From Vannielia litorea (GTDB lineage Bacteria; Pseudomonadota; Alphaproteobacteria; Rhodobacterales; Rhodobacteraceae), in contig NZ_QTNQ01000008.1 in assembly GCF_018424695.1 (NCBI RefSeq), forward strand, positions 34,199 to 98,198: a DNA stretch of 64,000 bases, in the 5' to 3' direction. The position numbers and the translations under genes are program-made. This document shows, in pieces, positions 2 through 18,422 of this stretch. Under the pieces are notes generated by a model. It made no database searches and had not been told where the DNA came from. It worked only from the letters and a program-made list of their open reading frames with translations. How positions within the stretch are numbered: position 1 is the first letter of the stretch; every line of letters starts with the position of its first letter.

Positions 2-256
2 CAGACCGGCCTCGACATCATGGTCTCGGCCTTCGACTTCTCGCCCGCCTCGCTGGAGCGCATCTCCGCCGGCACCCAGAAGATGGCCATCGACCAACAG
101 CCCTACCTTCAGGGCTTCCTGGCCACCTCGATGCTCTTCGCCAACCTGAAGTTTGGCACCGAGATCTCTACCGATCCGGTCCTGACCGGTCCGGCGATCA
201 TCGACGCCTCCAACGTCGACGCGGTGAAGGCTGGCGCAGAACTGGGCGCCCGCTGA
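2..256 (+). CDS. Sugar/cyclitol ABC transporter substrate-binding protein, C-terminal fragment
   Basis: The gene enters from the left edge; about 84 C-terminal residues are visible up to the TGA. The stretch QQPYLQGFLATSMLF is typical of the hinge/C-lobe of periplasmic binding proteins of the ribose/fructose/inositol class (Peripla_BP_4), where it closes over the bound sugar. The protein would act in the periplasm and deliver ligand to the permease encoded 102 bp downstream. Order binding protein-permease-ATPase matches frcBCA-type importers. The iol genes downstream make an inositol-like ligand likely, but this is inference; the ligand-binding N-lobe is outside the window. Confidence 0.85.
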   Translation, partial: QTGLDIMVSAFDFSPASLERISAGTQKMAIDQQPYLQGFLATSMLFANLKFGTEISTDPVLTGPAIIDASNVDAVKAGAELGAR

Positions 257-358
257 TCTGACCCAACCCGCTCCCGGCCGATCGATCCGGCCGGGGGCAA
301 CACTCACCCGCGCGGCAGCACCCGCGCCAGAGCAAGCCACCCTGGGGGAGCCATCAAA

Positions 359-1462
359 ATGGCGGACGCAACCAACACCGAAAGCAAGAGCACCGGGCCC
401 GACACAGCGTCGACGTCCGGCGGCGGCTTATCGCTTCTCAGCCTGTTCCGGCGCCCCGACGCGGGCGCGGCAGCGGGCTTCATCCTGATCTTCCTGTTCT
501 TCGCCTGGTTCGGCTGGGACAAGAACTTCCTCACCCCGCTCGGCTCCTCGACCTGGCTCAACTTCGCCTCCAAGGTCGGCATCATCGCCATCCCGATCGG
601 CTTCCTTATGATCGCAGGCGAGCTCGATATCTCCATCGGCGCGCTCATTCCCGCAGGCGGCATCGTGCTCGCCATGTCCACCGAGACCTTCGGGCTCAAC
701 ATCTGGCTCGGGGTGCTCATCAGCTTCGCCGTCGCCGGGGCCATCGGCTGGATGAACGGCATGCTGGTGACCCGCACCAACGTGCCCTCGCTCATCGTCA
801 CCCTGGCCACGCTCTTCGTGATCGCGGGTCTCAACGCCTACATCTCCAAACAGATCGCCGGCACCACCCAGCACAGCCTGCCCGATGCGGGCGTGGTCTC
901 CGAGTTCCTGATGGGCGACTATCATACGCTGAAGATCGGCTCCGAAGACAGCGCCTTCACCATCTTCCAGAGCCTGCAAAGCTCCTTCTTCATCTGGATC
1001 GCGGTTGCTGTGGGCTGTTTCTTCGTGCTGCATGTCAGCCCGTGGGGGAACTGGATCTTTGCCATGGGTGGTGACCAGGAAGCCGCGCGCAATGCGGGTA
1101 TCCCGACCAACCGCCTGAAGATCGCGCTGTTCATGCTGTCGGCCATGGCGGCTGCGCTTGTCGGCATGACCGAGGCTGTTCTGGCCAACACCGCCAGTAC
1201 AACGACGCAATTCGGCATGATCTTCAACACCATTATCTGTGTCGTCGTCGGCGGGGTTCTGTTGACCGGGGGCTTTGGCACGGTGACTGGCGTGGTCTTT
1301 GGCACGCTGACCTTTGGCATCGTGTTCCAGGGGATAAACTTCACTGCCTTCGACAAGGACCTGAATATGCTCTTCATCGGGGCGCTGCTGTTGGTGGCAG
1401 TTCTGATGAACGACACCTTCCGTAACCTGGCGACCAGCGCGTCGACCACCAAGAAAAAGTGA
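359..1462 (+). CDS. Sugar/cyclitol ABC transporter permease (RbsC/FrcC type)
   Basis: A 367-residue polytopic membrane protein. About 45 polar N-terminal residues are followed by roughly nine or ten hydrophobic segments. The conserved BPD_transp_2 motif GELDISIGA lies near residue 90, which places it with the ribose, fructose and inositol permeases. It would form the inner-membrane channel with the ATPase that begins 11 bp downstream. The ATG is preceded by a GGGGGAG ribosome-binding site. Family assignment is firm; the substrate (myo-inositol or a derivative) is inferred from the operon. Confidence 0.92.
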   Translation: MADATNTESKSTGPDTASTSGGGLSLLSLFRRPDAGAAAGFILIFLFFAWFGWDKNFLTPLGSSTWLNFASKVGIIAIPIGFLMIAGELDISIGALIPAGGIVLAMSTETFGLNIWLGVLISFAVAGAIGWMNGMLVTRTNVPSLIVTLATLFVIAGLNAYISKQIAGTTQHSLPDAGVVSEFLMGDYHTLKIGSEDSAFTIFQSLQSSFFIWIAVAVGCFFVLHVSPWGNWIFAMGGDQEAARNAGIPTNRLKIALFMLSAMAAALVGMTEAVLANTASTTTQFGMIFNTIICVVVGGVLLTGGFGTVTGVVFGTLTFGIVFQGINFTAFDKDLNMLFIGALLLVAVLMNDTFRNLATSASTTKKK

Positions 1463-1473
1463 GGGCTTGAACG

Positions 1474-2298
1474 ATGTCCGACAAAACCCCAGTTCTCGAA
1501 ATGCGCAAGGTCGACAAGAGCTTTGGCCCGATCGATGTGCTTCACGAAATCAGCCTGAAGGTCAACGAAGGCGAAGTGCTCTGCCTGCTCGGCGACAACG
1601 GTGCCGGCAAATCGACGCTGATCAAGACGATGTCCGGCGTGCACCAGCCCACCCGGGGCGAGATGCTGATGGATGGCAAGCCAGTCAGTTTCAATCGCCC
1701 ACGTGAAGCGCAGGATATGGGCATCGCGACGGTGCACCAGTTCGGCGGGACCTATCCGCTGATGTCCGTGGGGCGCAACTTCTTTGCCGGGAACGAGCCC
1801 ACCAAAGGTGTTGGCCCTTTCAAGGTCTTCGACCGCCAAAAGGCCAACCGCATCGCCGTGGATGAGGTCCAGAAGATGGGTATCACCCGCATCACCGATG
1901 GCGACCGTCTGGTCGGCGGCCTGTCGGGGGGCGAGCGTCAATCGCTGGCCATTGCCCGTGCTGTGTATTTCGGCGCACGCGTGCTGATCCTTGACGAACC
2001 GACCGCTGCTTTGGGTGTGAAACAGGCCGCCCACGTTCTGCGCATCGTGAACGAGGCCAAGAGGCGCGGGTTGGCGGTGATCTTCATCACCCACCAGGTC
2101 ATGCACGCGATGGCCGTGGGCGACCACTTTGCGGTTCTGATACGTGGCGCCATCGCCGCCGACTTCCGCAAGGGCGAAAAGACCCGCGAAGAGATTGCCG
2201 ACCTGATGGCGGGCGGTGAATCCATGGCCGATCTCGAAGCGAATATCGAAGGCTACATGGAAACCCATGACGGCCACGTGCCGGAACCGGCGCATTGA
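1474..2298 (+). CDS. Sugar/cyclitol ABC transporter ATP-binding protein, single-domain
   Basis: A 274-residue ABC ATPase with Walker [10 protein letters not shown] (residues 40-48), signature LSGGERQ (150-156), Walker B VLILDEP (170-176) and an H-loop FITHQ. Only one nucleotide-binding domain is present, unlike the duplicated ~500-residue RbsA/IatA proteins, so the transporter probably uses a homodimer as in FrcA systems. It powers import through the preceding permease. The last codons (coding VPEPAH) are followed by a near-repeat of the same bases just past the stop. A palindromic repeat then separates it from the enzyme genes. Confidence 0.93.
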
Positions 2299-2330
2299 GC
2301 ACGCAGCCGGAACCGGCCCACTGAAACACC

Positions 2331-2396: not shown

Positions 2397-2453
2397 CGAT
2401 GAGAGGAAGTTGACCACCGCGCACATCTGCGCTTTCGGGAAAGACCTTGTAGA

Positions 2454-3455
2454 ATGACCCTTCGAATTGCCGTCATCGGCGCAGGCCTCATGGGCGCCGA
2501 TCATGCCCGTATCGTCGCCGAGGACCTGCCCGGCGCACACCTTCAGGTGGTTTGCGACATGGACGGCGCCCGCGCCAAATCCATCGCCGACCAATATGGC
2601 GCGGACTCTGCCACTGATCCCGAAGCGACCATCGCACGCAATGACGTTGACGCCGTGATTGTTGCATCTCCTGATTTCACACACGCGCCCCTGAGCCTTG
2701 CCTGTATCAAAGCAGGCAAGAAAGTGATGTGCGAAAAGCCCTTGTCGCAGTCCTCGCCCGAATGCCTAGAGGTGATGAAGGCCGAAGAGGCCGCAGGCGA
2801 GAAATTCATCATGCTGGGTTTCATGCGCCGCTATGACCCGGCCTACCTGCAGATGCGCGCCGCACTCAAGTCGGGAAAGATCGGCCGCGCGCTGATGCTG
2901 CACAACTGGCACCGCAACGTCGCAACACCTGCCGCCGATTTCACTGGCGCCATGGCGATCACCAACTCTGCCCCGCATGAATTTGACGTCATGCGCTACC
3001 TGCTGGACACCGAGGTGACGTCCATTGCTGCATCGCAGCCGAAACGCTCTGACACGCTGGTGGCCCCCGTCGTCATGGTCTTGACGACTGCCGATGATCA
3101 GATCGTCACCGTCGAGGTCAACAACAACGCCGCCTATGGCTATGACGTCAAGGCAGAGCTGGTGGGGGAGACCGGCACGATCTCGACCAACCATGTCAGC
3201 TATACCCGCATGGATCAGGACGCCGCAAAGTCGCTGGGCCACGACCCCGACTGGCGCGACCGTTATGCCGAGGCTTATCGCCAACAGAACCGCGCCTTTG
3301 TGAACTGGGCGCAGGGCGGCGACTACCCCGAAATCGCTTCGTCGGCATGGGACGGCTACGCTGCTGCCGTGATCGCCGAGGCCGGTGCGCGGGCACTGGC
3401 CGACGGCTCGCGCGAAGACATCACCCTCATCTCCAAGCCGGAGTTCTACCAATGA
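2454..3455 (+). CDS. Gfo/Idh/MocA family NAD(P)-dependent oxidoreductase (inositol dehydrogenase-like)
   Basis: A 333-residue protein with an N-terminal Rossmann motif GAGLMG (residues 9-14) and the family CEKPLS motif near residue 93, whose Lys is catalytic in inositol dehydrogenases. These enzymes oxidise a ring hydroxyl of cyclitols or sugars with NAD(P)+. It is the first of three paralogues in the operon and the one placed next to the moc-like block. It may therefore act on a modified inositol, as MocA does on rhizopine. Its stop overlaps the next start (ATGA). Exact substrate unknown. Confidence 0.9.
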   Translation: MTLRIAVIGAGLMGADHARIVAEDLPGAHLQVVCDMDGARAKSIADQYGADSATDPEATIARNDVDAVIVASPDFTHAPLSLACIKAGKKVMCEKPLSQSSPECLEVMKAEEAAGEKFIMLGFMRRYDPAYLQMRAALKSGKIGRALMLHNWHRNVATPAADFTGAMAITNSAPHEFDVMRYLLDTEVTSIAASQPKRSDTLVAPVVMVLTTADDQIVTVEVNNNAAYGYDVKAELVGETGTISTNHVSYTRMDQDAAKSLGHDPDWRDRYAEAYRQQNRAFVNWAQGGDYPEIASSAWDGYAAAVIAEAGARALADGSREDITLISKPEFYQ

Positions 3456-4411
3456 AGCTGGGTTTCGTATCCGATAGCCTCGGTGGCATGTCCTTTGCCG
3501 AAATGATGGACAACGCGCAGCGCATGGGCGTCAGCGGTATCGAGGTCAACACCTGTGGCTGGTCGACTGCCCCGCATTGCCGCATGGACGATCTGCTCGG
3601 CAATGGGTCCGCTCAGAAGGCGTTCATGGACGAATTCGACCGACGAGGGCTGGAGATTATCTCCTTCAACGCCAACGGCAACCCGCTGCACCCGACCGAT
3701 CCCAAGCAGGGCGAGGATCTGAAAAAGACCATTCGCCTGGCCGGTGAAATGGGCGTCAAGAAAGTCTGCACCATGTCGGGCCTGCCCGCAGGCTCGGCAA
3801 ATGACGTGATGCCGAACTGGGTTGTCAGCAGCTGGCCGCCGGAAACGCAGATCATGCTCAAATACCAGTGGGAAGAAAAGCTGATCCCGTTCTGGACCGA
3901 GATCGTTGCGCTCTGCAAAGAGCACGGCGTCGAGCAGATCGCGCTTGAACTGCACGGCAACCAGTGCGTCTACAACGTGCCCTCACTGTTCAAACTACGC
4001 GAGGCTGTTGGCCCGGTGATTGGCGCGAACCTCGACCCAAGTCACCTGTTCTGGATGGGCGCCGATCCCCTGATCGCTGCCGAGGTACTGGGCGAAGCCG
4101 TGTATCACGTCCATGCCAAGGACACCTTCCTGAACGCACCCAAGCAGGCGACTACGTCTCTTCTGGAAAATGGCTCGCTCATGGATATCCCGGCGCGCTC
4201 GTGGTCCTACATCACGCTGGGCTTTGGCCATGGCGAGGAATGGTGGCGGCAGTTCTGCTATCGGCTCAAGATGGGCGGTTACGACGGCTGGCTGTCGATC
4301 GAACACGAGGATGTGCTGCTGAACTCGCTCGAAGGCCTGGAGAAATCCGTGGACCTGCTGAAGGGCGTGATGCCGTCTGCCCCTGCCGATTTCAAACCGC
4401 AGGAGATCTGA
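3452..4411 (+). CDS. Sugar phosphate isomerase/epimerase TIM-barrel protein (MocC/IolE-like)
   Basis: A 319-residue xylose-isomerase-like TIM barrel. Visible metal/catalytic motifs are ALELHGN, NLDPSHLFW, HVHAKD and a C-terminal SIEHED. Relatives include IolE inosose dehydratase and the rhizopine-catabolism protein MocC. I chose the ATG at 3452, which overlaps the preceding stop, because similarity starts there with MKLGFVSDSLG. A reading frame extending further upstream only shadows the dehydrogenase gene. A canonical iolE is present later (15519), so this copy likely handles a different intermediate. Confidence 0.88.
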   Translation: MKLGFVSDSLGGMSFAEMMDNAQRMGVSGIEVNTCGWSTAPHCRMDDLLGNGSAQKAFMDEFDRRGLEIISFNANGNPLHPTDPKQGEDLKKTIRLAGEMGVKKVCTMSGLPAGSANDVMPNWVVSSWPPETQIMLKYQWEEKLIPFWTEIVALCKEHGVEQIALELHGNQCVYNVPSLFKLREAVGPVIGANLDPSHLFWMGADPLIAAEVLGEAVYHVHAKDTFLNAPKQATTSLLENGSLMDIPARSWSYITLGFGHGEEWWRQFCYRLKMGGYDGWLSIEHEDVLLNSLEGLEKSVDLLKGVMPSAPADFKPQEI

Positions 4412-4415
4412 TCCC

Positions 4416-5477
4416 GTGCCCCGTGACTATGATCTTCTGGGACCGGATGCGCAAAGCGCCGTGGCCAAAGGTTTGGTCACGGAGGACTGGTATCGCACAC
4501 CCATCGACCGAAAGGTCATGAAAGCGCTGATGAAGCGGGCCGACCAGCCCGCGATCCGCGACACGGGTGTCCTTTTCGGGCTGATGGCGGTGTTCGCCGC
4601 CACAGCCATTGCGCTGATGCCCAGCTGGTGGTCCGCGCCGTTCTGGCTGGCCTATGGCGTGCTCTATGGCTCGGCAATGGACAGCAGGTGGCATGAGTGC
4701 GGTCATGGGTCTGCCTTCAAGACCCGCTGGATGAACATGGTCGTCTACCAGGTCGCGTGCTTCTGCATGGTCCGCGATCCGTCCTGCTGGAAGTTCGGCC
4801 ATGCTCGGCACCATTCCGACACGGTCATCGTCGGCCGTGACCCCGAAGTGGCGATCATGCGGCCCGTCGACATGCTCAAGATGGCGGCGAATCTGGTGGG
4901 CATTCTGGATGTGATCGACGGTGTGAAACGGATGATCCGGCACGCCGCAGGTCATATCCTGCCGGATGAGGCAGATTACGTGGCCGAGTCGTTCCACGCC
5001 AAGACCATCCGCACCGCGCGCATCTGGCTGGCGATTTACGCTGCAACCATCGCCGCCGCGCTGGTCTTTCAAAGCTGGATTCCCGTGCTGCTGATCGGTC
5101 TGCCGCGTCTGTATGGTTGCTGGCACATGGTGCTGTGCGGCTGGCTGCAGCATGGCGGGCTGGCCGACAACGTGTTGGATCACCGCATGAACAGCCGGAC
5201 GGTCTATATGAACCCGGTCAGCCGCTTCATCTACTGGAACATGAACTACCACGTCGAACACCACATGTTCCCGCTCGTACCCTACTACAAGCTGCCCGAA
5301 CTGCACGAGATCTGCCGCCACGACTTCCCGGCACCGAACACCTCTTTCCTGGATGGCTACGCTCAGATGCTGCCCGCGCTCTGGCGGCAGCGCAAAGACC
5401 CCGATTTCTACCTCCGGCGCCCGCTGCCGGAGACCGCAAACCCCTATCACGAAGGGCCGGCCGCAAAGGCCGCCTGA
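4416..5477 (+). CDS. Fatty-acid-desaturase-fold membrane di-iron oxygenase (MocD-like)
   Basis: A 353-residue integral-membrane protein with three histidine boxes: HECGH (93-97), HARHH (129-133) and HVEHH (279-283). They are separated by hydrophobic helices around residues 51-85 and 200-240. This is the non-heme di-iron desaturase/AlkB fold. A Rieske ferredoxin gene follows directly and a ferredoxin reductase lies further on, so it is probably the terminal oxygenase of a three-component system like rhizobial MocDEF, known for demethylating 3-O-methyl-scyllo-inosamine. It starts with GTG, 4 bp after the previous stop. Calling it an O-demethylase is inference; a lipid desaturase role is less likely here. 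Confidence 0.85.
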   Translation: MPRDYDLLGPDAQSAVAKGLVTEDWYRTPIDRKVMKALMKRADQPAIRDTGVLFGLMAVFAATAIALMPSWWSAPFWLAYGVLYGSAMDSRWHECGHGSAFKTRWMNMVVYQVACFCMVRDPSCWKFGHARHHSDTVIVGRDPEVAIMRPVDMLKMAANLVGILDVIDGVKRMIRHAAGHILPDEADYVAESFHAKTIRTARIWLAIYAATIAAALVFQSWIPVLLIGLPRLYGCWHMVLCGWLQHGGLADNVLDHRMNSRTVYMNPVSRFIYWNMNYHVEHHMFPLVPYYKLPELHEICRHDFPAPNTSFLDGYAQMLPALWRQRKDPDFYLRRPLPETANPYHEGPAAKAA

Positions 5478-5498: not shown

Positions 5499-5810
5499 AT
5501 GGCAGAATGGGTAGACGCCTGCGCAACGGGTGATGTGGACGCCGAGGACGTGATCCGCTTCGATCACGGGGCGCGGACCTTCGTCATCATCCGCGATCAC
5601 GAGGATAATTACTACTGCACCGATGGGTTGTGCACCCACGAGGATGTGCACCTCGAGGATGGTCTGGTGGTCGAGGCGACCATCGAATGCCCCAAGCATT
5701 CCTCGATCTTCGACTGCACATCCGGTGAGGTCGAAACGCCCCCGGCCTGCGAAAACCTGTGTACCTATCCTGTCAAAGTCGATGGCGGTCGGGTCTTCGT
5801 CGAAATCTGA
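5499..5810 (+). CDS. Rieske [2Fe-2S] ferredoxin (MocE-like)
   Basis: A small soluble Rieske protein of 103 residues. Cluster ligands are Cys45-x-His47 (CTHEDVHLEDG) and Cys64-x2-His67 (ECPKHSS). Length and motif match bacterial ferredoxins of MocE/NirD-like oxygenase systems. It would pass electrons from the reductase at 6679 to the membrane oxygenase encoded 21 bp upstream. A good GAGGAG ribosome-binding site precedes the ATG. Confidence 0.92.
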   Translation: MAEWVDACATGDVDAEDVIRFDHGARTFVIIRDHEDNYYCTDGLCTHEDVHLEDGLVVEATIECPKHSSIFDCTSGEVETPPACENLCTYPVKVDGGRVFVEI

Positions 5811-5902: not shown

Positions 5903-6682
5903 ATGAGCTTTCAACTTGCCGCCTGCGCCGAAATGCTGTGGCGCGACAAACCCATCGAATGGCGGGCCTCACGCCTGAAAGAGATGGGGTTTGGCGTGGG
6001 TCTCTGGAACTGGCCGGATCACGATCTAGCCAAGCTGGAAGCCACGGGCGCCAATTTCACCATCATGAACGGCTACCTCGTCGGGCGTTTGTCCGATGCC
6101 GAGGGCGCGGAGGCGCTGTTGGCCAGCGCGCGAGAGACAGCACAGGTCGGCAAGCGGCTGGGTGTCGACCGGCTGAACCTGCATGGCACTGGATTGGGCG
6201 ATATGGGTGTGCCGATCCCGCTGATCGGGTCCTTTGCACCCGGTTACGAACAGCGCGCCCGTGACACACTGCACCGCATCTGCGACATGGCCGAGACCGT
6301 GGGGGTGACTTTCACGTTGGAAAACCTCAACCCCATCGACCATCCCGGTTGCCCGTTTGGCTCGACCGCGGATGTGCTGGCCTTGGTCAGCGCGGTGGGC
6401 CGCCCGCAGCTGCGCATCAACCTCGACCTCTATCACACGCAGATCGGCGAAGGTGACCTGATCCGCTGGTGTCAGGCGTGCTTGCCGTGGATTGGCGAGG
6501 TGCAAGTCGCCGACAACCCCGGCCGGTGTGAGCCGGGCACGGGCGAAATCAACTATGCGGGCATCGCCAGTGCGCTGAGCGAAATGGGCTATAGCGGCCC
6601 CGTCGGTATGGAGGCCTTTGCGGCAGGCGATCCCGAGGCCGCGCTGGAGTCCTTCCGCACTGCATTCACGGTGTCGTCATGA
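5903..6682 (+). CDS. Hydroxypyruvate isomerase-like TIM-barrel protein
   Basis: A 259-residue protein of the Hyi/OtnI branch of xylose-isomerase-like TIM barrels. Motifs visible are TLENLNP, NLDLYHTQIGEGD, VADNPGRCEPGTGEINY and a terminal GMEAF. Family members interconvert hydroxypyruvate and tartronate semialdehyde or isomerise related 2-/3-oxo acids. I chose the ATG at 5903 because family similarity begins at MSFQLAACAEM; the frame is open upstream but crosses the palindrome. It overlaps the next gene (ATGA) and splits the ferredoxin from its reductase. Substrate unknown. Confidence 0.82.
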   Translation: MSFQLAACAEMLWRDKPIEWRASRLKEMGFGVGLWNWPDHDLAKLEATGANFTIMNGYLVGRLSDAEGAEALLASARETAQVGKRLGVDRLNLHGTGLGDMGVPIPLIGSFAPGYEQRARDTLHRICDMAETVGVTFTLENLNPIDHPGCPFGSTADVLALVSAVGRPQLRINLDLYHTQIGEGDLIRWCQACLPWIGEVQVADNPGRCEPGTGEINYAGIASALSEMGYSGPVGMEAFAAGDPEAALESFRTAFTVSS

Positions 6683-7860
6683 GCGGCATGGTCATAATCG
6701 GGGCAGGGGAGTGCGGCGTCCGGGCCGCGTTTGCCCTGCGAATGCAAGGCTATGCGGGCGAGATCACGCTGATTGGGGCGGAGGCGGCGTTGCCTTATGA
6801 ACGTCCGCCGCTGTCCAAATTCGGCGAGACCAAACCGATCTGCGCGGTTGAAGCCTATCAGGACAAGGCGATCACCTTGCGTCTTGGCGAACCTGTCCGC
6901 GGTATTGATCGGGCCACTCGGAGCGTTTCCCTGGCAGGGGGTGAGACGCTGGACTATGACTGCCTCCTTTTGGCCACCGGCGCGCGGGCACGGCTGTTTC
7001 CTGGGATGGACGGTTGCCTGACCCTGCGCACTGACAAGGACGCGCAGTCCATTCTGTCTCAACTGCACCGAGATGCCCGGATTGGCATCGTTGGTGGCGG
7101 TTTTATCGGGCTGGAGCTTGCCGCTCTGGCACGGTCAGCCGGAGCCGAGGTGACGGTTTTCGAAGCAGCCCCCCGACTCTTGGGTCGTGCTGTACCGCCC
7201 CAGATCGCACAGGTCCTGCAAGATCGGCACTTGGCTGAAGGCGTGTCCATGATGCTGGGCACGGGTGTGTCGTCTGCCAATGCAACCCGCATCGTCCTGG
7301 CTGACGGCAAGGTATTGGACTTCGACGCCGTGATTGCCGGTGTTGGGGCGCTGCCGAATACCGATCTCGCTGAAACCGCAGGATTGGATGTGCAGAACGG
7401 TATCGTCGTTGACGGCGATTTCCGGACGTCGGACCCGCATGTCTTTGCCGCCGGGGATTGCTGCAATTTCGACTGGCGCGGCCAACGCGTCCGGCTGGAA
7501 AGCTGGAAGGCTGCGAAGGACCAGGGCGAACACGCTGCCAGTGCCATGTTGGGGCAGTCGGATGCCTATTCGAAAGGACCGTGGTTCTGGTCGGATCAAT
7601 ACGATCTGGGGCTGCAGGTGACTGGGATCTTCGATCTGGCGGCGCCGATCCGCCATCGCAACACTGGCGGTGGCACAACGGTCGTTTTCCAAATTGATAG
7701 CGTGGGAACGCTCCGCGCCGCGGCAGGGATAGGGCCAATGAACACCACGTCGAAGGACATTCGCATCTTCGAAAAACTCATTGAACGGGGCACTGCCGTC
7801 GATGCCGATGCGCTGGCCGATCCCGAACAGAACTTGAAGCGGCTGCTGAAAGCTGCCTGA
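6679..7860 (+). CDS. FAD/NAD-dependent ferredoxin reductase (MocF-like)
   Basis: A 393-residue flavoprotein with an N-terminal FAD motif VIIGAGECG, a central NAD-binding motif IGIVGGGFIGLELA, a VFAAGDC FAD-ribityl motif, and a C-terminal reductase domain. This is the architecture of rubredoxin/ferredoxin reductases such as BphA4 and MocF. It is the natural NADH-side partner of the Rieske ferredoxin at 5499 and the oxygenase at 4416. The ATG overlaps the previous stop, suggesting translational coupling. Confidence 0.88.
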   Translation: MSGMVIIGAGECGVRAAFALRMQGYAGEITLIGAEAALPYERPPLSKFGETKPICAVEAYQDKAITLRLGEPVRGIDRATRSVSLAGGETLDYDCLLLATGARARLFPGMDGCLTLRTDKDAQSILSQLHRDARIGIVGGGFIGLELAALARSAGAEVTVFEAAPRLLGRAVPPQIAQVLQDRHLAEGVSMMLGTGVSSANATRIVLADGKVLDFDAVIAGVGALPNTDLAETAGLDVQNGIVVDGDFRTSDPHVFAAGDCCNFDWRGQRVRLESWKAAKDQGEHAASAMLGQSDAYSKGPWFWSDQYDLGLQVTGIFDLAAPIRHRNTGGGTTVVFQIDSVGTLRAAAGIGPMNTTSKDIRIFEKLIERGTAVDADALADPEQNLKRLLKAA

Positions 7861-10809: not shown

Positions 10810-11694
10810 ATGACCAAATTCGCCCTTCGCGTTCAATGCCAAAGCCGTCGCGGGATCGTGGCGGCCGTCTCTGCCTATTTGGCAGAGCAGGGCTGCAATA
10901 TCACGGACAGTGCCCAATTCGACGATACGGAAACCGGCAACTTCTTCATGCGGGTCAGCTTCCAGTCCGAAGAGGGCAGGGGCTTGGACGACCTGTATGC
11001 TGGCTTCGCTGACATTCGGGCGCAATTCGGCATGGACGCCGAATTCTTCGACGAGGCAGTCAAACACAAGGTCGTGATCATGGTTTCGCGCTTTGGCCAT
11101 TGTCTCAACGATCTGCTGTATCGCTGGCGGATCGGCGCTCTGCCGATCGACATCGTGGCGGTGATATCAAACCACATGGAGTATCAGAAAGTCGTGGTGA
11201 ACCACGACATTCCGTTCCACTGCATCAAGGTCACGAGGGAGAACAAGCCCGAGGCAGAAGCCCGGATCATGCAGGTCGTCGAAGACACGGGCGCAGAGCT
11301 GATCGTTCTCGCCCGCTACATGCAGATCCTGTCTGACGAGATGTGTCGCAAGATGTCGGGGCGGATCATCAACATCCACCACTCCTTCCTGCCCAGCTTC
11401 AAGGGGGCCAACCCCTACAAGCAAGCCTTTGAACGAGGCGTCAAACTGATCGGGGCTACGTCGCACTACGTGACCGCTGATCTAGATGAAGGCCCGATTA
11501 TCGAGCAGGACATCATTCGCGTGACGCATGCGCAGTCCCCCGATGATTATGTATCGCTGGGTCGCGACGTCGAGGCGCAGGTCTTTGCCCGCGCCATTCA
11601 TGCCCAAATTCATGGCCGCGTCTTCCTAAACGGGAACAAGACCGTGGTCTTCCCGCCCAGCCCCGGCTCTTACGCGTCGGAGCGCATGGGCTGA
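10810..11694 (+). CDS. purU: Formyltetrahydrofolate deformylase
   Basis: A 294-residue protein with an N-terminal ACT domain (about 1-80) and a formyltransferase-fold domain holding the catalytic triad Asn188, His190 (INIHHSFLP) and Asp226 (TADLDEGP). It hydrolyses 10-formyl-THF to formate and THF. PurU usually balances purine/glycine folate pools. Inside a catabolic operon with an oxygenase it more likely drains C1 units released by demethylation, as seen for purU next to other demethylation systems. The context argument is inference; the family call is firm. Confidence 0.95.
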   Translation: MTKFALRVQCQSRRGIVAAVSAYLAEQGCNITDSAQFDDTETGNFFMRVSFQSEEGRGLDDLYAGFADIRAQFGMDAEFFDEAVKHKVVIMVSRFGHCLNDLLYRWRIGALPIDIVAVISNHMEYQKVVVNHDIPFHCIKVTRENKPEAEARIMQVVEDTGAELIVLARYMQILSDEMCRKMSGRIINIHHSFLPSFKGANPYKQAFERGVKLIGATSHYVTADLDEGPIIEQDIIRVTHAQSPDDYVSLGRDVEAQVFARAIHAQIHGRVFLNGNKTVVFPPSPGSYASERMG

Positions 11695-11711
11695 TGACAG
11701 AGGATAGCAAA

Positions 11712-13637
11712 ATGACCAAACCCTTGGACGTAATCACGATTGGCCGTGCGGGCGTAGACTTGTATGGCGCGCAGATTGGCGGGCGGCTCGAGGATATGGC
11801 GTCCTTCGACAAGTATATCGGTGGGTCTCCGACGAATATCGCCTGCGGCACCGCCCGCCTTGGCCTGAAGTCGGCGCTGATCTCGCGCGTGGGCAACGAG
11901 CACATGGGGCGGTTCATCGTCGAGCAACTGGCGCGTGAGGGGGTTGAGACGAAAGGTGTTGTGACCGATCCGGAGCGGCTGACGGCCCTGGTGATCCTCG
12001 GCATCCGCGATCAGGAACAATTCCCGCTGATCTTCTATCGCGAGAATTGCGCTGATATGGCGCTGTGCGAAGATGACATCGATCCCGAGTTCATCAAATC
12101 CGCGCGTTCCGTCGTGCCCACCGGCACCCACCTGAGCCACGAACGCACCCGCGCTGCGGTGCTCAAGGCGCTGACCATTGCGCGCGAGAACGGCGTCAAG
12201 ACCGCGCTCGACATCGACTATCGCCCGAACCTCTGGGGCATTCTGGGGCATGGCGACGGCGAGAGCCGCTTTGCCGAAAGCGCCGAGGTGACCGCGCAGT
12301 TGATGAGCACGCTGCACCTGTTTGACCTGATCGTTGGCACCGAGGAAGAGTTCCACATCGCCGGGGGCTCGACGGATACCATCGCGGCGCTGCGCGCGGT
12401 GCGGGCCGTGTCAAACGCCACGCTGGTCTGCAAGCGCGGACCGATGGGGGCCGTGGCCTTCGAAGGCGATATCCCCGACAGCCTCGACGATGGCCAGACC
12501 GGACCGGGCTTTCCGATCGAGGTGTTCAACGTCTTGGGCGCGGGCGATGGCTTCATGTCGGGCCTGCTCAAGGGCTGGCTGGATGGCGAGCCTTGGCCCA
12601 CCGCGCTGAAATACGCCAACGCCTGCGGGGCCTTCGCGGTCAGTCGTCACGGCTGCACCCCGGCCTATCCGTCGTGGGAAGAGCTTCAGTTCTTCTTCGA
12701 GCGCGGCATCATCCAACCCGACCTGCGCAATGATGCAGAGTTGGAACAGGTCCATTGGGCGACGAACCGCCACACGCGCCCCGGCGCGCAGGCGGATGTT
12801 CTGCGGACCTTTGCCTTTGACCATCGCATGCAGCTGGAGGAAATGGACGGCTACTCCCTGGAAAAGGGTGGGGCCTTCAAAGAGTTGTGCCTTGAGGCCG
12901 CGCTGAAGGTTCAGAACGGTGAGACCGGGTATGGCATCCTGTGCGACAATCGCATCGGCCGCTCCGCGCTGCACCGCGCGTCCGGCTCTGGCCTGTGGAT
13001 CGGTCGCCCGACCGAGGACCCCGGCTCGCGCCCAATCCAGTTCGAAAAGGACCTTGGCATCGACTTTGGCCGGTTCAAGGAATGGGCGGTTGAGGACGTG
13101 GTGAAACTGCTCGTTTTCTGTCACCCCGACGACGACGCCACGACCCGCGCCCTGCAAGAAGAACGCGTCTTGCGCCTGTTCACCGCCGCCCGTCGGGCCG
13201 GGCTGGAGGTCCTGCTCGAGGTGATCCCGTCCAAGGTCGGCCCGGTCGATGACACAACCACCGCGACGCTGATCCAGCAATTCTACGATGCGGGCGTCTA
13301 TCCAGACTGGTGGAAGCTGGAGCCGTTCAAGACCGACGCGGCCTGGCAAAACGCCGTCAATGCCATCGAGCGCAACGATCCGCGCACCCGTGGCATCGTG
13401 GTGTTGGGGCTGGATGCGCCCGAGGCCGAACTGGCGGAAAGCTTTGCCATGGCCGCCAAGCAGCCACTGGTCAAAGGGTTTGCCGTGGGCCGGACAATCT
13501 TTGGCGACGCCGCCCGCGCATGGATGAAAGGCGACATGACCGACGCAGAGGCAGTTGCCCAGATGGCAGAGCGTTTCACTCGGCTGTGCAACGTCTGGGA
13601 CACGGCGCGCGCGGACGCACGCCTGAACGCCGCATGA
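11712..13637 (+). CDS. iolC: 5-dehydro-2-deoxygluconokinase with C-terminal DUF2090 domain
   Basis: A 641-residue fusion. Residues 1-310 form a PfkB/ribokinase-type kinase (GGSPTNIACGTARLG, and NVLGAGDGFMSG around 272-283 with the catalytic Asp). The rest is DUF2090, an aldolase-like TIM barrel. Known Iol pathway: IolC phosphorylates 2-deoxy-5-keto-gluconate, and an aldolase (IolJ) then cleaves it. No separate iolJ is seen here, so the fused domain may supply that step. I prefer the ATG at 11712, with AGAGGA seven bases upstream, over the ATG at 11694 that overlaps the purU stop. Confidence 0.93.
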   Translation: MTKPLDVITIGRAGVDLYGAQIGGRLEDMASFDKYIGGSPTNIACGTARLGLKSALISRVGNEHMGRFIVEQLAREGVETKGVVTDPERLTALVILGIRDQEQFPLIFYRENCADMALCEDDIDPEFIKSARSVVPTGTHLSHERTRAAVLKALTIARENGVKTALDIDYRPNLWGILGHGDGESRFAESAEVTAQLMSTLHLFDLIVGTEEEFHIAGGSTDTIAALRAVRAVSNATLVCKRGPMGAVAFEGDIPDSLDDGQTGPGFPIEVFNVLGAGDGFMSGLLKGWLDGEPWPTALKYANACGAFAVSRHGCTPAYPSWEELQFFFERGIIQPDLRNDAELEQVHWATNRHTRPGAQADVLRTFAFDHRMQLEEMDGYSLEKGGAFKELCLEAALKVQNGETGYGILCDNRIGRSALHRASGSGLWIGRPTEDPGSRPIQFEKDLGIDFGRFKEWAVEDVVKLLVFCHPDDDATTRALQEERVLRLFTAARRAGLEVLLEVIPSKVGPVDDTTTATLIQQFYDAGVYPDWWKLEPFKTDAAWQNAVNAIERNDPRTRGIVVLGLDAPEAELAESFAMAAKQPLVKGFAVGRTIFGDAARAWMKGDMTDAEAVAQMAERFTRLCNVWDTARADARLNAA

Positions 13638-13648
13638 AGGATACGATC

Positions 13649-15493
13649 ATGACCAAGACCATTCGATTGACTGCGGCTCAGGCCATGGTGCGATACATCG
13701 CGGCACAAAAGACCGAAAGCGGCGAACCCTTCATCGCGGGGTGCTGGGCGATCTTCGGACATGGTAACGTGGCCGGGCTGGGCGAGGCGCTGTATTCCGC
13801 GCAGGATGCCCTGCCGACCTGGCGCGGCCAGAACGAACAGACCATGGCGCATACGGCGATTGCCTTTGCCAAGGCGTCCAAGCGGCGCCGCGCGATGGCG
13901 GTGACCTCGTCGATTGGGCCGGGCGCGACGAACATGGTGACCGCCGCTGCGCTGGCGCATGTGAACCGCATTCCGTTGCTGCTGCTCCCCGGCGACGTGT
14001 TCGCCAACCGCCGCCCCGATCCGGTGCTGCAGCAGGTCGAGGATTTTGACGACGGGACGGTCTCGGCGAACGACTGTCTCCGGCCCGTCAGCCGGTATTT
14101 CGACCGGATCACCCGGCCCGAACACCTGCTCACCTGCCTGCCGCGCGCCATGTCGGTGATGACCGATCCGGCCAATTGCGGCCCGGTCACGCTGTCCTTC
14201 TGTCAGGACGTGCAGGCTGAAGCCTATGACTACCCACAAGCGTTCTTTGAGCCAAAGGTCTGGCGAATCCGCCGCCCCGAGCCGGATGCGGGGGAGTTGG
14301 CCGATGTAGTCGACCTGATCAAGGCCGCGAAGAACCCTGTAATCGTCTGTGGCGGAGGCGTGATCTACTCACAGGCCGAGGACGTGCTGGGCGATTTCGC
14401 GACCAAGCACAACATCCCTGTCGTGGAAACACAGGCGGGCAAATCGGCCTTGGCGCAGGCCCACTCGATGAACTTCGGCGCAAGCGGTGTCGATGGGTCC
14501 GCGGCGGCGAACGCCGTGTCGGAAAACGCCGATCTGGTGATCGGGGTCGGCACGCGCTTTCAGGACTTCACCACCGGATCGTGGGCCTTGTTCAAAAACC
14601 CTGTGCGGCGGTTGGTCTCAATCAACGTCGCCGCCTATGACGCCGTGAAACACGGCGCTGTGCCGATGGTCTCGGACGCGAAAGTGGCGTTGGAAAAGAT
14701 CGGCGCGGCCCTTGGCGATCATGCGGCCAGCGCCCCGGATGCCACGCTGCGAAGCGACTGGCTGGAGGCCGTCACCGCCCATGTCGCCCCGCGCGAGGGT
14801 GGCGAAGGCTACCGCCCGCTCGACGCCGAAGTGATCGGCGCGGTGCAACGCGCCACCGGCCCGGATGCGGTTGCGATGTGCGCCGCAGGCACCATGCCCG
14901 GCGCCTTGAAACTGCTGTGGCAACCGTCGCAGGGCGGGTATCACATGGAATACGGCTTTAGCTGCATGGGCTATGAAATCGCCGGAGCCATGGGCCTGAA
15001 GTTGGCCAGTCCCGAGCGCGAGGTGATCTGTTTTGTGGGCGACGGCAGCTATATGATGGCGAACTCGGAACTCGCCACGGCGGTGATGCGCCGCGTGCCC
15101 TTCACCGTCGTGTTGACCGACAACCGGGGCTATGGCTGCATCAATCGCCTGCAGACTTTGGGCTGTGGCGGCGCGCCGTTCAACAATCTCTATGAGCACT
15201 CGAATGTCGAGTTTCAGCCCGAGATCGACTACGTGGCGCACGCCGCGTCGATGGGGGCGCATGCGGTCAAGGCGGCCGACATCGCGGCGCTTGAGGCCGA
15301 GATCGCCAATGCACGCGGTCGCAACATCCCGACGGTGATCGTGATCGAAACCAACCCGGCCGAGGGACCGGGCTTTGGCGACGCGGGCCATTGGTGGGAT
15401 GTGGCCGTGCCTGCGGTCAGCGACCGCGAAGGTGTGAACGCGGCCTATGCCAGCTATCTTGAGAACATGGCCCAACAACGGCTGGTCAACTGA
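13649..15493 (+). CDS. iolD: 3D-(3,5/4)-trihydroxycyclohexane-1,2-dione hydrolase
   Basis: A 614-residue ThDP-dependent enzyme of the IolD family. The N-terminal part has GQNEQTMAH, with the Glu that activates thiamine. The C-terminal part has GDGSYMMANSELATAV followed by NRGYGCIN, the ThDP/Mg motif. It opens the cyclitol ring to 5-deoxy-glucuronate. The ATG at 13649 has AAGGA seven bases upstream; an ATG at 13634 overlapping the iolC stop would add five residues. The frame stays open upstream only as a shadow of iolC. Confidence 0.95.
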   Translation: MTKTIRLTAAQAMVRYIAAQKTESGEPFIAGCWAIFGHGNVAGLGEALYSAQDALPTWRGQNEQTMAHTAIAFAKASKRRRAMAVTSSIGPGATNMVTAAALAHVNRIPLLLLPGDVFANRRPDPVLQQVEDFDDGTVSANDCLRPVSRYFDRITRPEHLLTCLPRAMSVMTDPANCGPVTLSFCQDVQAEAYDYPQAFFEPKVWRIRRPEPDAGELADVVDLIKAAKNPVIVCGGGVIYSQAEDVLGDFATKHNIPVVETQAGKSALAQAHSMNFGASGVDGSAAANAVSENADLVIGVGTRFQDFTTGSWALFKNPVRRLVSINVAAYDAVKHGAVPMVSDAKVALEKIGAALGDHAASAPDATLRSDWLEAVTAHVAPREGGEGYRPLDAEVIGAVQRATGPDAVAMCAAGTMPGALKLLWQPSQGGYHMEYGFSCMGYEIAGAMGLKLASPEREVICFVGDGSYMMANSELATAVMRRVPFTVVLTDNRGYGCINRLQTLGCGGAPFNNLYEHSNVEFQPEIDYVAHAASMGAHAVKAADIAALEAEIANARGRNIPTVIVIETNPAEGPGFGDAGHWWDVAVPAVSDREGVNAAYASYLENMAQQRLVN

Positions 15494-15518: not shown

Positions 15519-16424
15519 ATGAGTGTGAGAATCGGCATCTCGCTGATTGCCTGGCAGAATGACGACCTGCCCGAATTGACCGCCGCCTTTACCACCGAAG
15601 GCGCGATGGAGGATGCGGGCAAGATCGGCTACATGGGCGTAGAACGCGGACGTCGCATGCCCGCCGACACCGAGGGTTTGCGAGCCTATCTGGATCGCTA
15701 CTCCGTGTCGCTTTGTGGTGGCTGGTGCTCGGGCAACCTGATGGTCAATGACCTCGCGACCGAACAAGAAGCTATCCGCCAGCAGGTCGACCAGTTCGCG
15801 GCGCTGAACGCACCTTGCATCGTCTATGCGGAGTGTTCCAACACGATTCAGGGCGACATCGGCACGCCTGTGTCGCGCCGTCCCAAAATGAGCCGCGACG
15901 AGGTCATGGCCTATGCCGCAAAACTGTCGGAACTGGCGAAATGGTCGGCGGATCGGGGTACACCGCTGGCCTATCACCACCACATGGGCGCGATGGTGCA
16001 GGACGCCGAGGATATCGATTGGCTGATGGAGGGCTCGACCCGCGACCTGCATCTGCTTTACGACACTGGCCATCTGCATTTTGCCGGGGCTGATCCGCTG
16101 GCCATCTTGGACAAATGGGGTCACCGCGTGTGCCACGTTCACTTCAAGGACGTGCGCCAGAAGGTGCTGGACTGGGTCCGCGCGGAGGACAAAAGCTTTC
16201 TCGATGGCGTGGCAGCAGCCGTCTATTCCGTGCCGGGCGATCCAGAGGGATGCATCGACTTTCAGGCGATCACCGACCAGCTCAAGGCAATGGACTACAA
16301 AGGCTGGATCGTCGTCGAGGCCGAGCAGGACCCGGCCAAGGCCCCGCCCTTCGAGTATTCCAAGCTCGGCTTTGATCACATCACCCGGATCTGCGCCAAA
16401 TCCGGCCTGACCGTCGCGCGCTGA
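15519..16424 (+). CDS. iolE: Inosose dehydratase
   Basis: A 301-residue TIM-barrel enzyme with motifs AYHHHMGAMVQDAEDID, LLYDTGHLHFAG and HVHFKDVR, typical of IolE. It dehydrates scyllo-inosose to the trihydroxycyclohexane-dione used by IolD, whose gene ends 25 bp upstream. The start at 15519 (MSVRIGISLIAWQND) fits the family; an upstream extension would run into iolD. Confidence 0.93.
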   Translation: MSVRIGISLIAWQNDDLPELTAAFTTEGAMEDAGKIGYMGVERGRRMPADTEGLRAYLDRYSVSLCGGWCSGNLMVNDLATEQEAIRQQVDQFAALNAPCIVYAECSNTIQGDIGTPVSRRPKMSRDEVMAYAAKLSELAKWSADRGTPLAYHHHMGAMVQDAEDIDWLMEGSTRDLHLLYDTGHLHFAGADPLAILDKWGHRVCHVHFKDVRQKVLDWVRAEDKSFLDGVAAAVYSVPGDPEGCIDFQAITDQLKAMDYKGWIVVEAEQDPAKAPPFEYSKLGFDHITRICAKSGLTVAR

Positions 16425-16442
16425 CACAGACAAGAGGCCCGG

Positions 16443-17603
16443 ATGAGCGATACCGTCTATTTCACGCCCGAGGATTGCGATCTGGAAACGTTCCGCGCGC
16501 TGATCGGGCAATCGCTCGACGCGGCCTCCGTGCCCCTCGCGGCGGACATCGCGCAGAACGTGCCGGTCTATGACATGACAGTGCTGTGTGACCACCTGAC
16601 CGACCCGGCGGCGCGCCGCGCCCTGATGGCGGAATGGGCACAAGGTTTGGGGCAGGGGGCCGGCCTGCTGGTTCTGCGCGGTGCCTATGCCGATACCGCG
16701 CCGATCGATGCCGCCACCGCTGTTTACGAAGACATCATTGCGCAGGAAAAGGGCAAAGGCGGGGCGGATCATTTTGCCGCCTCGGGCGCGAATGATCGGA
16801 TCTGGAATTCGCTGCAAAAGCTTTGCCTCGCCGCACCTGAAACCTTTGCGTTGTATTTCGGAAACCTCGCCATCGACGCAGTCTGCGATGCGTGGCTGGG
16901 GCCGGGGTATCAGATGACAGCGCAGGTCAATTTGGTCCGTCCGGGGGGCAAGGCGCAGCAGGCGCATCGCGACTATCATCTGGGGTTCCAGACCGAGGAG
17001 ATGGCTATGCGCTTTCCCGCGCATGTTCATGACCTGTCCGCGGTGATGACCCTGCAAGGTGCGGTTGCCCATTGCGACATGCCGGTCGAGAGCGGCCCGA
17101 CCAAGCTCTTGCCCTTCTCGCAGCTGTTCCGCCCCGGGTACCTCGCCTATCGTCATGCGGATTTTGCTGCACTGTTCGAGGAGCGCTGCATCCAGCTGCC
17201 ACTGGCCAAGGGTGATGCGCTGTTCTTCAACCCGGCGCTGTTCCATGCGGCAGGCGAGAACCGCAGCGCGGATATCCAGCGCATGGCGAACCTGTTGCAG
17301 GTTTCTTCTCCCTTTGGCCGCGCGATGGAGGCGGTGGATCGCGATGCCATGAGCCGGGCGCTGTACCCGGCCTTGTTGGCCTTGCGTGAAACGGGCCGAC
17401 TGAACGCCGCGCAGACCCGCGCCGCGATTGCCGCCTGTGCCGAGGGCTATAGCTTCCCGACTAATCTCGACTCCGATCCGCCTGGTGGCGGACTGGCCCC
17501 CGAAACCCAGGCTGCTCTTGTCTGTCGCGCCATTGAGGCGGGAACGGATGCTGTCAGCCTTGCCGCAGAACTCGACGCGCTGGCCGCGCGCCGCATAGCC
17601 TGA
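16443..17603 (+). CDS. Phytanoyl-CoA dioxygenase (PhyH) family Fe(II)/2-oxoglutarate enzyme
   Basis: A 386-residue cupin-fold dioxygenase. The iron triad is visible as His175-x-Asp177 (AHRDYHLGFQ) and His268 (FHAAGENRS), with Arg280 placed to bind 2-oxoglutarate. PhyH enzymes hydroxylate or oxidatively demethylate small molecules in the cytoplasm. It sits between iolE and iolB with gaps of 18 and 12 bp, so it belongs to the same transcript although it is not part of the textbook Iol pathway. A second entry reaction for a substituted inositol is a reasonable guess. Confidence 0.83.
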   Translation: MSDTVYFTPEDCDLETFRALIGQSLDAASVPLAADIAQNVPVYDMTVLCDHLTDPAARRALMAEWAQGLGQGAGLLVLRGAYADTAPIDAATAVYEDIIAQEKGKGGADHFAASGANDRIWNSLQKLCLAAPETFALYFGNLAIDAVCDAWLGPGYQMTAQVNLVRPGGKAQQAHRDYHLGFQTEEMAMRFPAHVHDLSAVMTLQGAVAHCDMPVESGPTKLLPFSQLFRPGYLAYRHADFAALFEERCIQLPLAKGDALFFNPALFHAAGENRSADIQRMANLLQVSSPFGRAMEAVDRDAMSRALYPALLALRETGRLNAAQTRAAIAACAEGYSFPTNLDSDPPGGGLAPETQAALVCRAIEAGTDAVSLAAELDALAARRIA

Positions 17604-17615
17604 AAGGACAACCCG

Positions 17616-18422
17616 ATGCCCGATCTACTTCGAAAGCCGTTTGGCACTCATGGCAAGGTGCATGAGATCACGCCGCAAATCGCCGGGTGGCGCTATGTTG
17701 GCTTTTCCGTCTATCGGCTGCATCCCGGCGACACCGTTACAGAGGCGACAGGCGACCGCGAGGTGATCCTTGTCATGGTCGAGGGAAAGGCGCGGTTCAC
17801 CGGCGCGGGCCAAGACTGGGGCGAACTCGGCGACCGCATGAACCTCTTCGAAAAGACCCCACCGCATTGCCTGTATCTGCCGAATGGCAGCGACTGGACG
17901 GCCGAGGCCACGACCGAGTGCGTCATCGCCGTTTGCAGCGCCCCGGGCATGGGCGGGCATGAGGCGCGCCGCATCGGCCCCGACGGCATCACCCTGACGA
18001 CACGCGGCAAGGGCACCAATACCCGCCACATCAACAACATCGCCATGGAGAACGAGGACTATTGTGATAGCCTGCTGGTGACCGAGGTCTTTACCCCGGC
18101 TGGGCACTGGTCGTCCTATCCCAGCCATCGACACGACGAAGATGATTTTCCGCGCATCACCTACCTTGAGGAAACCTACTACCACCGGCTGAACCCCGCC
18201 GATGGCTTCGGAATCCAACGCGTCTATACCGACGATCTGCAACTGAACGAGACGATGGCCGTGCATGACGGCGATGTGGTGCTGGTCCCGCGCGGGCACC
18301 ACCCTTGCGGTGCTCCCTATGGCTTTGAGATGTACTACCTTAACGTGATGGCTGGCCCCCTGCGCAAATGGCGCTTCGTTCCCGCCCCAGAAGTCGAATG
18401 GATCATGCAGCGGGACGCATAG
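17616..18422 (+). CDS. iolB: 5-deoxy-glucuronate isomerase
   Basis: A 268-residue bicupin of the IolB/KduI family. The C-terminal cupin shows SHRHDEDDFPRITYLEETYY and VLVPRGHHPCGAPYG, holding the metal-binding histidines. It isomerises 5-deoxy-glucuronate to 2-deoxy-5-keto-gluconate, feeding IolC. With iolG, iolE, iolD and iolC this completes the route to the kinase product. iolA (methylmalonate semialdehyde dehydrogenase) is not in the window. Confidence 0.95.
   Translation: MPDLLRKPFGTHGKVHEITPQIAGWRYVGFSVYRLHPGDTVTEATGDREVILVMVEGKARFTGAGQDWGELGDRMNLFEKTPPHCLYLPNGSDWTAEATTECVIAVCSAPGMGGHEARRIGPDGITLTTRGKGTNTRHINNIAMENEDYCDSLLVTEVFTPAGHWSSYPSHRHDEDDFPRITYLEETYYHRLNPADGFGIQRVYTDDLQLNETMAVHDGDVVLVPRGHHPCGAPYGFEMYYLNVMAGPLRKWRFVPAPEVEWIMQRDA

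Follow-up and report, generated by a model that had tools for sequence, protein, structure and literature searches.

Why should an inositol catabolic operon carry a chain of oxygenases and, beside them, a protein that resembles PanB? The locus that raises this question belongs to Vannielia litorea (Rhodobacteraceae; assembly GCF_018424695.1, contig NZ_QTNQ01000008.1), where we analysed a stretch of 64,000 nucleotides, the window (positions 34,199 to 98,198 of the forward strand). A run of 23 tandem genes, all on the + strand, begins 5 kb to the left of the window (-4981) and ends at position 19621. Plants and algae commonly contain methyl ethers of sugars and of cyclitols, which yield formaldehyde when they are broken down oxidatively. 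We give an even chance to the reading that the run joins an inositol gene set to a cassette cleaving cyclitol methyl ethers, with a predicted hand-over of the one-carbon (C1) unit to tetrahydrofolate (THF). The PanB-like protein, PBL, would be central to that hand-over.

A divergent LacI gene is followed by FAH1-SBP1-permease-permease-SBP2-permease-ATPase-Gfo1-TIM1-MocD-MocE-TIM2-MocF-PBL-Gfo2-IolG-PurU-IolC-IolD-IolE-PhyH-IolB-FAH2, in which FAH1 and FAH2 are PF04116 hydroxylases and SBP1 and SBP2 periplasmic binding proteins (SBPs). Intergenic spacing is -4 to 161 bp; four of the gaps are overlaps of 1-4 bp if iolC is taken to start at 11712, and the open reading frame (ORF) start at 11694 would give a fifth. 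An earlier note, made from the letters of the window alone, had placed the run between position 2 and the end of iolB, with gaps of mostly 0-50 bp. Family searches recovered every gene it named, on the + strand and where it had put them, and 15 of the 22 gaps are indeed at most 50 bp, but the run is longer at both ends: five more genes and the LacI gene adjoin the left edge of the window on the same contig, and FAH2, which may or may not share the transcript, starts 161 bp 3' of iolB, after the largest gap of the run. A promoter and terminator scan there found 5 terminator-like sites, against 2.9 +/- 1.7 in shuffles. The note had overlooked the PF04116 oxygenases at the two ends. Within the run, the oxygenase/PBL block is inserted after Gfo1-TIM1 and before Gfo2-IolG, its gaps measuring -4 to 92 bp, and the same gene set recurs in many related loci, which excludes a chance grouping. 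The operon is also carried by a culturable relative, Tropicibacter naphthalenivorans (L048).

PBL tracks oxygenases more than it tracks inositol genes. Among 390 genomes of the order (E up to 1e-40 for PBL, up to 1e-30 for MocE), PBL occurs at 45 places in 42 genomes, which span 27 genera and are not independent samples, and MocE at 76 places in 65 genomes, 59 of them above the curated cut-off; 39 genomes have both. We read all 45 PBL places. At 42 of them a gene for MocD, a PF04116 protein, MocE or MocF lies within 3 kb on the same strand; taken singly, MocD or PF04116 is found within 3 kb of PBL at 37 places and MocE at 34-35, and an IolG-like gene lies within 6 kb on the same strand at only 15. 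Other PBL places hold LacI genes and ABC (ATP-binding cassette) importers and, in two, a dihydroxy-acid-dehydratase-type gene. The earlier note had proposed a neighbourhood search for its gene set across the order; the block does recur, but the usual partners of PBL are the oxygenases, a habit that note had missed, amid varied sugar and cyclitol genes. Neighbourhood tables of 48 PBL loci, in which the choice of ORFs is heuristic and the counts cover BLAST-labelled genes only, give a similar picture: a gene labelled MocD or FAH is present in 34 loci (FAH1 in 24, FAH2 in 7, MocD in 11), and one or more of MocD, FAH, MocE and MocF in 42, the other six being short stretches of 4.5-11.7 kb. In a class-wide sample of 385 genomes, searched at E up to 1e-20 so that the weakest matches may be PanB, PBL was found in 24; in one of these genomes the order is MocD-MocF-MocE-PBL-MocD-PF04116, after which come genes for a lactonase and a sugar-acid dehydratase.

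The oxygenase chain has the expected motifs. MocD carries the three His boxes of its family (HECGH, HARHH, HVEHH), MocE a C-x-H...C-x2-H motif, and FAH1 and FAH2, 49% identical from opposite ends of the run, have H-x4-H and HSxHH motifs. On plasmids of Shinella and R. binae a sterol-desaturase-type gene (56-57% identical to FAH2) replaces MocD beside MocE and MocF. We infer that either a PF04116 protein or MocD can act as the terminal oxygenase of the same electron chain, which would add a second oxygenase family to Moc-type chains. Alkylglycerol monooxygenase, which we count among the PF04116 fatty acid hydroxylases, is a precedent that makes methyl-ether cleavage by the FAH proteins plausible. 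In the available part of PMC3617469 it is described as an ether-cleaving enzyme; it needs tetrahydrobiopterin, whereas the FAH genes here sit with MocE and MocF. Oxidative removal of a sugar O-methyl group, with formaldehyde as product, is likewise described for 6-O-methyl-D-galactose in marine bacteria in the part of PMC10033563 available to us, where the enzyme is a cytochrome P450 in place of the membrane di-iron oxygenases seen here.

The inositol core itself is ordinary. IolG, IolC, IolD, IolE and IolB all exceed their curated cut-offs in a profile search of the operon proteins, and the methylmalonate-semialdehyde dehydrogenase IolA is encoded outside the operon, on another contig (G000:C226; 672 bits, cut-off 448.5). 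Three Gfo/Idh dehydrogenases are present, as the earlier note had counted, but only the one at 9763-10758 reaches the IolG cut-off. Gfo1 scores 268 bits with NF052679, far under the cut-off of 540, and matches 3ec7 (1.3e-60) and 3mz0, an inositol 2-dehydrogenase/D-chiro-inositol 3-dehydrogenase (1.6e-59), in the PDB. TIM1, taken by that note as a MocC/IolE-like isomerase, is a TIM-barrel isomerase-like protein (PF01261), accompanied in the run by a second, TIM2 (5903-6682). TIM1 reaches only 27 bits with the IolE model (cut-off 290), against 395 for the IolE-type gene of a rhizopine cluster that we take as mocC, and is probably not MocC.

Related operons show the core without the cassette. The inositol operon on Phaeobacter inhibens pP24_b reads LacI-SBP-permease-ATPase-Gfo1-TIM1-TIM2-iolG-iolC-iolD-iolE-iolB, the order shared by the Vannielia run, and contains no oxygenase, MocE, MocF, PBL or PurU gene; of the two, only the Vannielia run has these. 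A shorter, cassette-free core, LacI-ABC-Gfo1-TIM1-iolC-iolD-iolB, is found on Agrobacterium tumefaciens pAt15955, so that the Gfo1-TIM1 pair is retained where the cassette is lacking. Around TIM1 homologues (42-86% identical; 20 of the 21 places in the order sample, the window's own being omitted), MocE and PBL occur together at 6 places, MocE only at 2, PBL only at none and neither at 12; of the two genomes with MocE only, one (G690) has PBL on another contig, and no PBL was found in the other (G538). Conversely, in five loci (L019, L020, L027, L051 and L133) FAH1, MocE, PBL and Gfo2 form a unit of their own, in four of them with MocF, beside the inositol core or ABC/Gfo1 genes; Gfo2 accompanies the cassette where this is separate from the core. 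Inositol operons that lack the whole block fit an add-on that removes a substituent.

The genome's sole iolD above cut-off lies in this run, so plain inositols must use the operon too, and the earlier note's description of it as dedicated to a substituted cyclitol does not survive. The sole iolD and the block-free cores would also suit an operon for plain myo-, scyllo- or chiro-inositol in which the oxygenases act on a side substrate or a lipid, with PBL and PurU as passengers. We regard this as unlikely, given that the block is interleaved with the core and recurs in many genera and inside a rhizopine cluster.

That cluster links the cassette to a known methyl ether. MocDEF is reported to demethylate 3-O-methyl-scyllo-inosamine, a result attributed to Bahar and colleagues (1998). 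On Sinorhizobium meliloti BL225C pSINMEB01 a gene matching the MocR model NF052281 (764 bits, cut-off 650) opens the order mocR-mocD-mocE-mocF-PBL-purU, with iolE-type, iolG-like and binding-protein genes at the places expected for mocC, mocA and mocB; the Vannielia MocD and MocF are 60% and 48% identical to its mocD and mocF products. S. kummerowiae has the same rhizopine run with an uninterrupted PBL of 276 residues, S. terangae has mocDEF-PBL-purU beside a LacI gene, and mocDEF-PBL stands beside LacI, without purU, on S. meliloti pSymB and on R. etli p42e. An expressed neighbour group of mocDEF with its LacI gene appears in the available part of PMC11387232, and the words panB and purU are absent from the main texts of two rhizopine papers, PMC10107442 and PMC6668481. 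Like the mocCABRDEF clusters of Sinorhizobium and Rhizobium, the Vannielia run couples inositol catabolism to a MocD oxygenase with a MocE ferredoxin and a MocF reductase, and with the BL225C and S. kummerowiae clusters it shares PBL and purU as well, two C1 genes that in those clusters come directly 3' of mocF; it differs from mocCABRDEF in having LacI rather than MocR, its own ABC importer, a full iol set in the same run and, in addition to MocD, a PhyH protein and two PF04116 oxygenases. Through the mocDEF-PBL-purU order, PBL and PurU are connected with a substrate known to be a methyl ether. The earlier note had the operon strip a methyl or other substituent, dispose of the C1 unit via folate and feed the ring into the Iol pathway; apart from the word "dedicated", that outline is borne out in part by the union of Moc chain, PurU and complete iol core in one run, by the MocR-marked cluster and by the related operons that lack the block. 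The PBL gene of BL225C is itself interrupted, in two overlapping pieces (L123 12740-13566), by either decay or a sequence error.

The fold and the residues of PBL bear on what it does. It scores 80.6 bits with the PanB model TIGR00222, far under the cut-off of 207.55, while a separate, true PanB in the genome scores 350 bits; the two are 29% identical across 98 residues only. An AlphaFold2 model from 27 sequences (pLDDT, the predicted confidence score, 86.6; poor at residues 128-134) nevertheless predicts a PanB fold: the first 28 Foldseek matches are PanB (best E 4.5e-17). Of 77 sequences of the PBL type we aligned 76, leaving out a fragment; the most distant of them, at 25-30% identity, may be PanB. 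D49, D88 and E120, numbered as in the genome's own PanB and in our understanding its metal-site residues, are retained in 8, 2 and 1 of the 76, and K118 in 4; among the 69 sequences of at least 33% identity the counts for D49, D88 and E120 are 3, 0 and 0. Two residues of the C-terminal half, H142 and E187, are retained in all 76, E187 being presumably the Glu that handles the C1 unit in PanB. PBL therefore resembles PanB in fold, in its C-terminal motif and in this His and Glu, and differs in the replacement of the metal-site residues in nearly all members.

The Foldseek matches that follow PanB are isocitrate-lyase/PEP-mutase (phosphoenolpyruvate mutase) proteins. Together with the lost metal site and the rarity of FolD or PurU next to PBL, they would fit a lyase or isomerase of that superfamily acting on an inosose or sugar intermediate, with no C1 role. 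This too seems improbable to us, because PBL follows oxygenases across ring chemistries, few of its places having an IolG-like gene nearby, and because two relatives have it in the orders PBL-FolD-PurU and PBL-Gfo2-FolD-PurU, and three Sinorhizobium records in the order mocDEF-PBL-purU.

The first two of these orders, PBL-FolD-PurU-iolG in Neotabrizicola and PBL-Gfo2-FolD-PurU in L045, belong to a folate link that is recurrent but not general: among the 48 PBL loci PurU is labelled in 4 and FolD in 1, with tblastn matches to PurU in two more (L016, L039). The case for PBL as a C1-to-folate enzyme draws on its predicted fold, the retained residues, its linkage to oxygenases and a small number of gene orders; a PurU neighbour common to all loci is no part of it. 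To our knowledge no enzyme is established for the reaction of formaldehyde with THF. In the part of PMC7073904 available to us the spontaneous reaction is given as too slow for growth, PanB is named as one of two possible catalysts in Escherichia coli, and a THF-type formaldehyde-activating enzyme is discussed as a possibility. We tentatively suggest, as a proposal that may well fail, that PBL is the long-missing loader of formaldehyde or a hemiacetal hydroxymethyl group onto THF: a PanB free of metal and keto-acid sites, serving as the shared C1 trap of a large, substrate-agnostic cassette family (MocD or PF04116 with MocE and PBL) whose members range over rhizopine clusters of rhizobia, Rhodobacterales and SAR11-like genomes. 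PBL would then be a concrete and widely spread candidate for the formaldehyde-to-THF enzyme, and its role with folate in the run would be disposal of toxic formaldehyde. A literature search that mostly did not reach subscription papers found no paper describing PBL with Moc-type oxygenases, and in literature on pinitol, methylinositol and the S. meliloti loci it found no substrate test of mocDEF-PBL. Available parts of two papers touch on PanB. PMC4814558 reports a folate-cleaving side activity. Literature on homarine and on SAR11 desaturases gave nothing on the cassette other than Table 1 of PMC4433239, where a GcvT gene and a gene annotated "3-methyl-2-oxobutanoate hydroxymethyltransferase", which may or may not be PBL, are listed close to genes for methanesulfonate.

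Several observations weigh against the reading of the run as a demethylation cassette in which PBL takes up the C1 unit. In G705 the PBL place has no gene for MocD, PF04116, MocE or MocF nearby, and in two genomes of the window's own genus (G395, G494) five opposite-strand genes part PBL-iolG from FAH1...MocE, 7.4 kb off. PBL was not found in 26 of the 65 MocE genomes, and MocE runs on plasmids of Fuscovulum, Shinella and R. binae have no PBL in the stretch, so Moc-type chains can do without it. Distant class-wide relatives of PBL (about 30-37% identical) are often solitary or have Rieske or PhyH genes as neighbours. TM (template modelling) scores of the Foldseek matches to PanB are about 0.6-0.7, and root-mean-square deviations are mostly 14-15 A over the full length, with 3.6-5.1 A in three. 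In the order sample PurU lies within 6 kb on the same strand at only 2 of the 45 PBL places and FolD at none. The genome also encodes a glutathione-dependent formaldehyde dehydrogenase (604 bits, cut-off 544), so PBL need not be the formaldehyde sink. Finally, formaldehyde-THF growth of E. coli was unchanged on removal of candidate enzymes including PanB, according to the available part of PMC7073904; this shows that ordinary PanB is not the catalyst in that strain and is silent on PBL.

From gene content, order, families, predicted fold, residue loss and linkage we propose the following course for methyl-ether cleavage. The ABC importer with its two binding proteins would take up plain and O-methyl inositols. 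FAH1, MocD or FAH2, whose genes are linked to those of MocF and MocE and which would receive electrons from these, would hydroxylate the O-methyl carbon, and the separate oxygenases may suit separate ring positions. PBL, a PanB fold stripped of its metal and keto-acid site with the C-terminal His and Glu retained, would place the C1 unit, as formaldehyde or directly from the hemiacetal, on THF to give 5,10-methylene-THF; FolD would oxidise this, and PurU would convert 10-formyl-THF to formate and THF. The bare ring would be oxidised and re-isomerised by Gfo1, Gfo2, IolG and the two TIM-barrel proteins and enter IolE-D-B-C. The cassette would amount to plug-in oxidative O-demethylation, in which interchangeable membrane di-iron oxygenases draw on one ferredoxin and one reductase in common and PBL traps the C1 unit. 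Because it feeds an inositol core, its substrates are most likely O-methyl inositols, which the sequence does not narrow to one compound.

C-methyl and C-hydroxymethyl cyclitols and mycosporine-type compounds also occur in algae, and PBL might run PanB chemistry backwards on such a ring: an oxygenase would make C-CH2OH, a Gfo/Idh dehydrogenase the neighbouring ketone, and PBL would remove the CH2OH as methylene-THF, from substrates such as laminitol, mytilitol or the gadusol core of mycosporine-like amino acids. The PanB fold, the oxygenase linkage and the three dehydrogenases and PurU of the run would all be accommodated. We nevertheless find this route and its substrates doubtful, because PBL lacks the residues for metal and keto acid that PanB chemistry uses, and because it lies 3' of mocDEF in the rhizopine cluster; it also adjoins genes for quite different sugars. 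The rhizopine substrate, as named in the available part of PMC6668481, carries an O-methyl and no C-methyl group. That the run is itself an operon for rhizopine (3-O-methyl-scyllo-inosamine) we reject as very improbable: MocE reaches its family cut-off, MocD and MocF are homologous to those of the moc cluster and neither SBP matches any NCBIfam model other than that of the rhizopine SBP at 1e-10, but the regulator is LacI-type, MocR (NF052281) is absent among the matches listed for the operon proteins and the LacI protein, no aminotransferase family appeared among the operon proteins scanned, and SBP1 and SBP2 reach only 155.8 and 126.6 of 420 bits, a weak test in that the SBP of BL225C itself scores 46.

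Table 1. Genes of the Vannielia litorea run and the adjoining regulator; positions are counted from the first letter of the window, with negative values to its left.
Feature	Position	Strand	Match or remark
LacI regulator (PF00356)	-6184 to -5138	divergent	adjoins run start
FAH1, PF04116 hydroxylase	-4981 to -3941	+	PF04116 62.4 bits, cut-off 31
SBP1, periplasmic binding protein	-3855 to -2887	+	rhizopine SBP model NF052284, 156 of 420 bits
Permease	-2805 to -1777	+	ABC importer
Permease	-1773 to -745	+	ABC importer
SBP2, second binding protein	-697 to 256 (L009 14502-15455); 1 to 256 is the 3' end	+	NF052284, 127 of 420 bits
ABC sugar-type permease	359 to 1462	+	PF02653
ABC ATP-binding protein	1474 to 2298	+	PF00005
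Gfo1, Gfo/Idh/MocA dehydrogenase	2454 to 3455	+	nearest inositol/D-chiro-inositol dehydrogenase
TIM1, AP_endonuc_2 TIM-barrel isomerase-like, paired with Gfo1	3452 to 4411	+	PF01261
MocD-type membrane di-iron oxygenase	4416 to 5477	+	PF00487
MocE Rieske-type [2Fe-2S] ferredoxin	5499 to 5810	+	TIGR02377 146.6 bits, cut-off 136.15
TIM2, hydroxypyruvate-isomerase-like TIM barrel	5903 to 6682	+	PF01261; TIGR03234 118 bits, cut-off 353
MocF-type FAD ferredoxin reductase	6679 to 7860	+	PF07992, PF14759
PBL, PanB-like protein, predicted C1-capture enzyme (hydroxymethyl/formaldehyde to THF)	7880 to 8698	+	PF02548, C-terminal half only
Gfo2, generic Gfo/Idh/MocA dehydrogenase	8698 to 9726	+	PF01408
IolG inositol 2-dehydrogenase	9763 to 10758	+	TIGR04380 426 bits, cut-off 355
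PurU 10-formyl-THF hydrolase	10810 to 11694	+	TIGR00655 331.7 bits, cut-off 285.95
IolC kinase fused to DUF2090 aldolase	11694 to 13637	+	NF047869 689.6 bits, cut-off 600
IolD	13634 to 15493	+	TIGR04377 867 bits, cut-off 715
IolE inosose dehydratase	15519 to 16424	+	TIGR04379 368 bits, cut-off 290
PhyH-family Fe(II)/2-oxoglutarate dioxygenase	16443 to 17603	+	PF05721 92.8 bits
IolB 5-deoxyglucuronate isomerase	17616 to 18422	+	TIGR04378 345 bits, cut-off 205
FAH2, PF04116 membrane hydroxylase	18584 to 19621	+	PF04116 67.1 bits, cut-off 31

PBL relatives also occur in other settings. Three small genomes (L087, L091, L106), which from size and sequence we would guess to be SAR11-like, have PBL and a MocD-like gene as a two-gene unit, with a Rieske oxygenase gene close by in L087 (by Pfam) and L106 (68% identical) and no gene labelled MocE or iol within about 5 kb in any of the three. 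One small genome (G161) has four PBL genes (L089 8232-11559; L090 5033-9044). Two of them form a tandem next to a gene for a PhyH dioxygenase and a further gene resembling it, and one follows genes for PhyH, a MocD-like protein and a family 4 glycosidase; PBL may partner 2-oxoglutarate dioxygenases too. Relatives at 33-37% identity (L073-L077), from several other families of the class, form a distinct subfamily, whose longer N-terminus starts near MASHATGDGG. No Moc genes lie beside them in the stretches read (L099-L102, L104), and their function is possibly another one.

The remaining observations concern single genes. The placing of the PhyH dioxygenase gene of the run, iolE-PhyH-iolB, recurs in another genome of the order (L181). 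A second PurU above cut-off, encoded elsewhere in the Vannielia genome (G000:C158:32752-33582), possibly serves another C1-releasing pathway. Downstream of the operon, a tRNA-Phe gene (20285-20359) separates it from an opposite-strand gene (20602-21615) for an MsnO8-family luciferase-like monooxygenase (TIGR03558, 444 bits).

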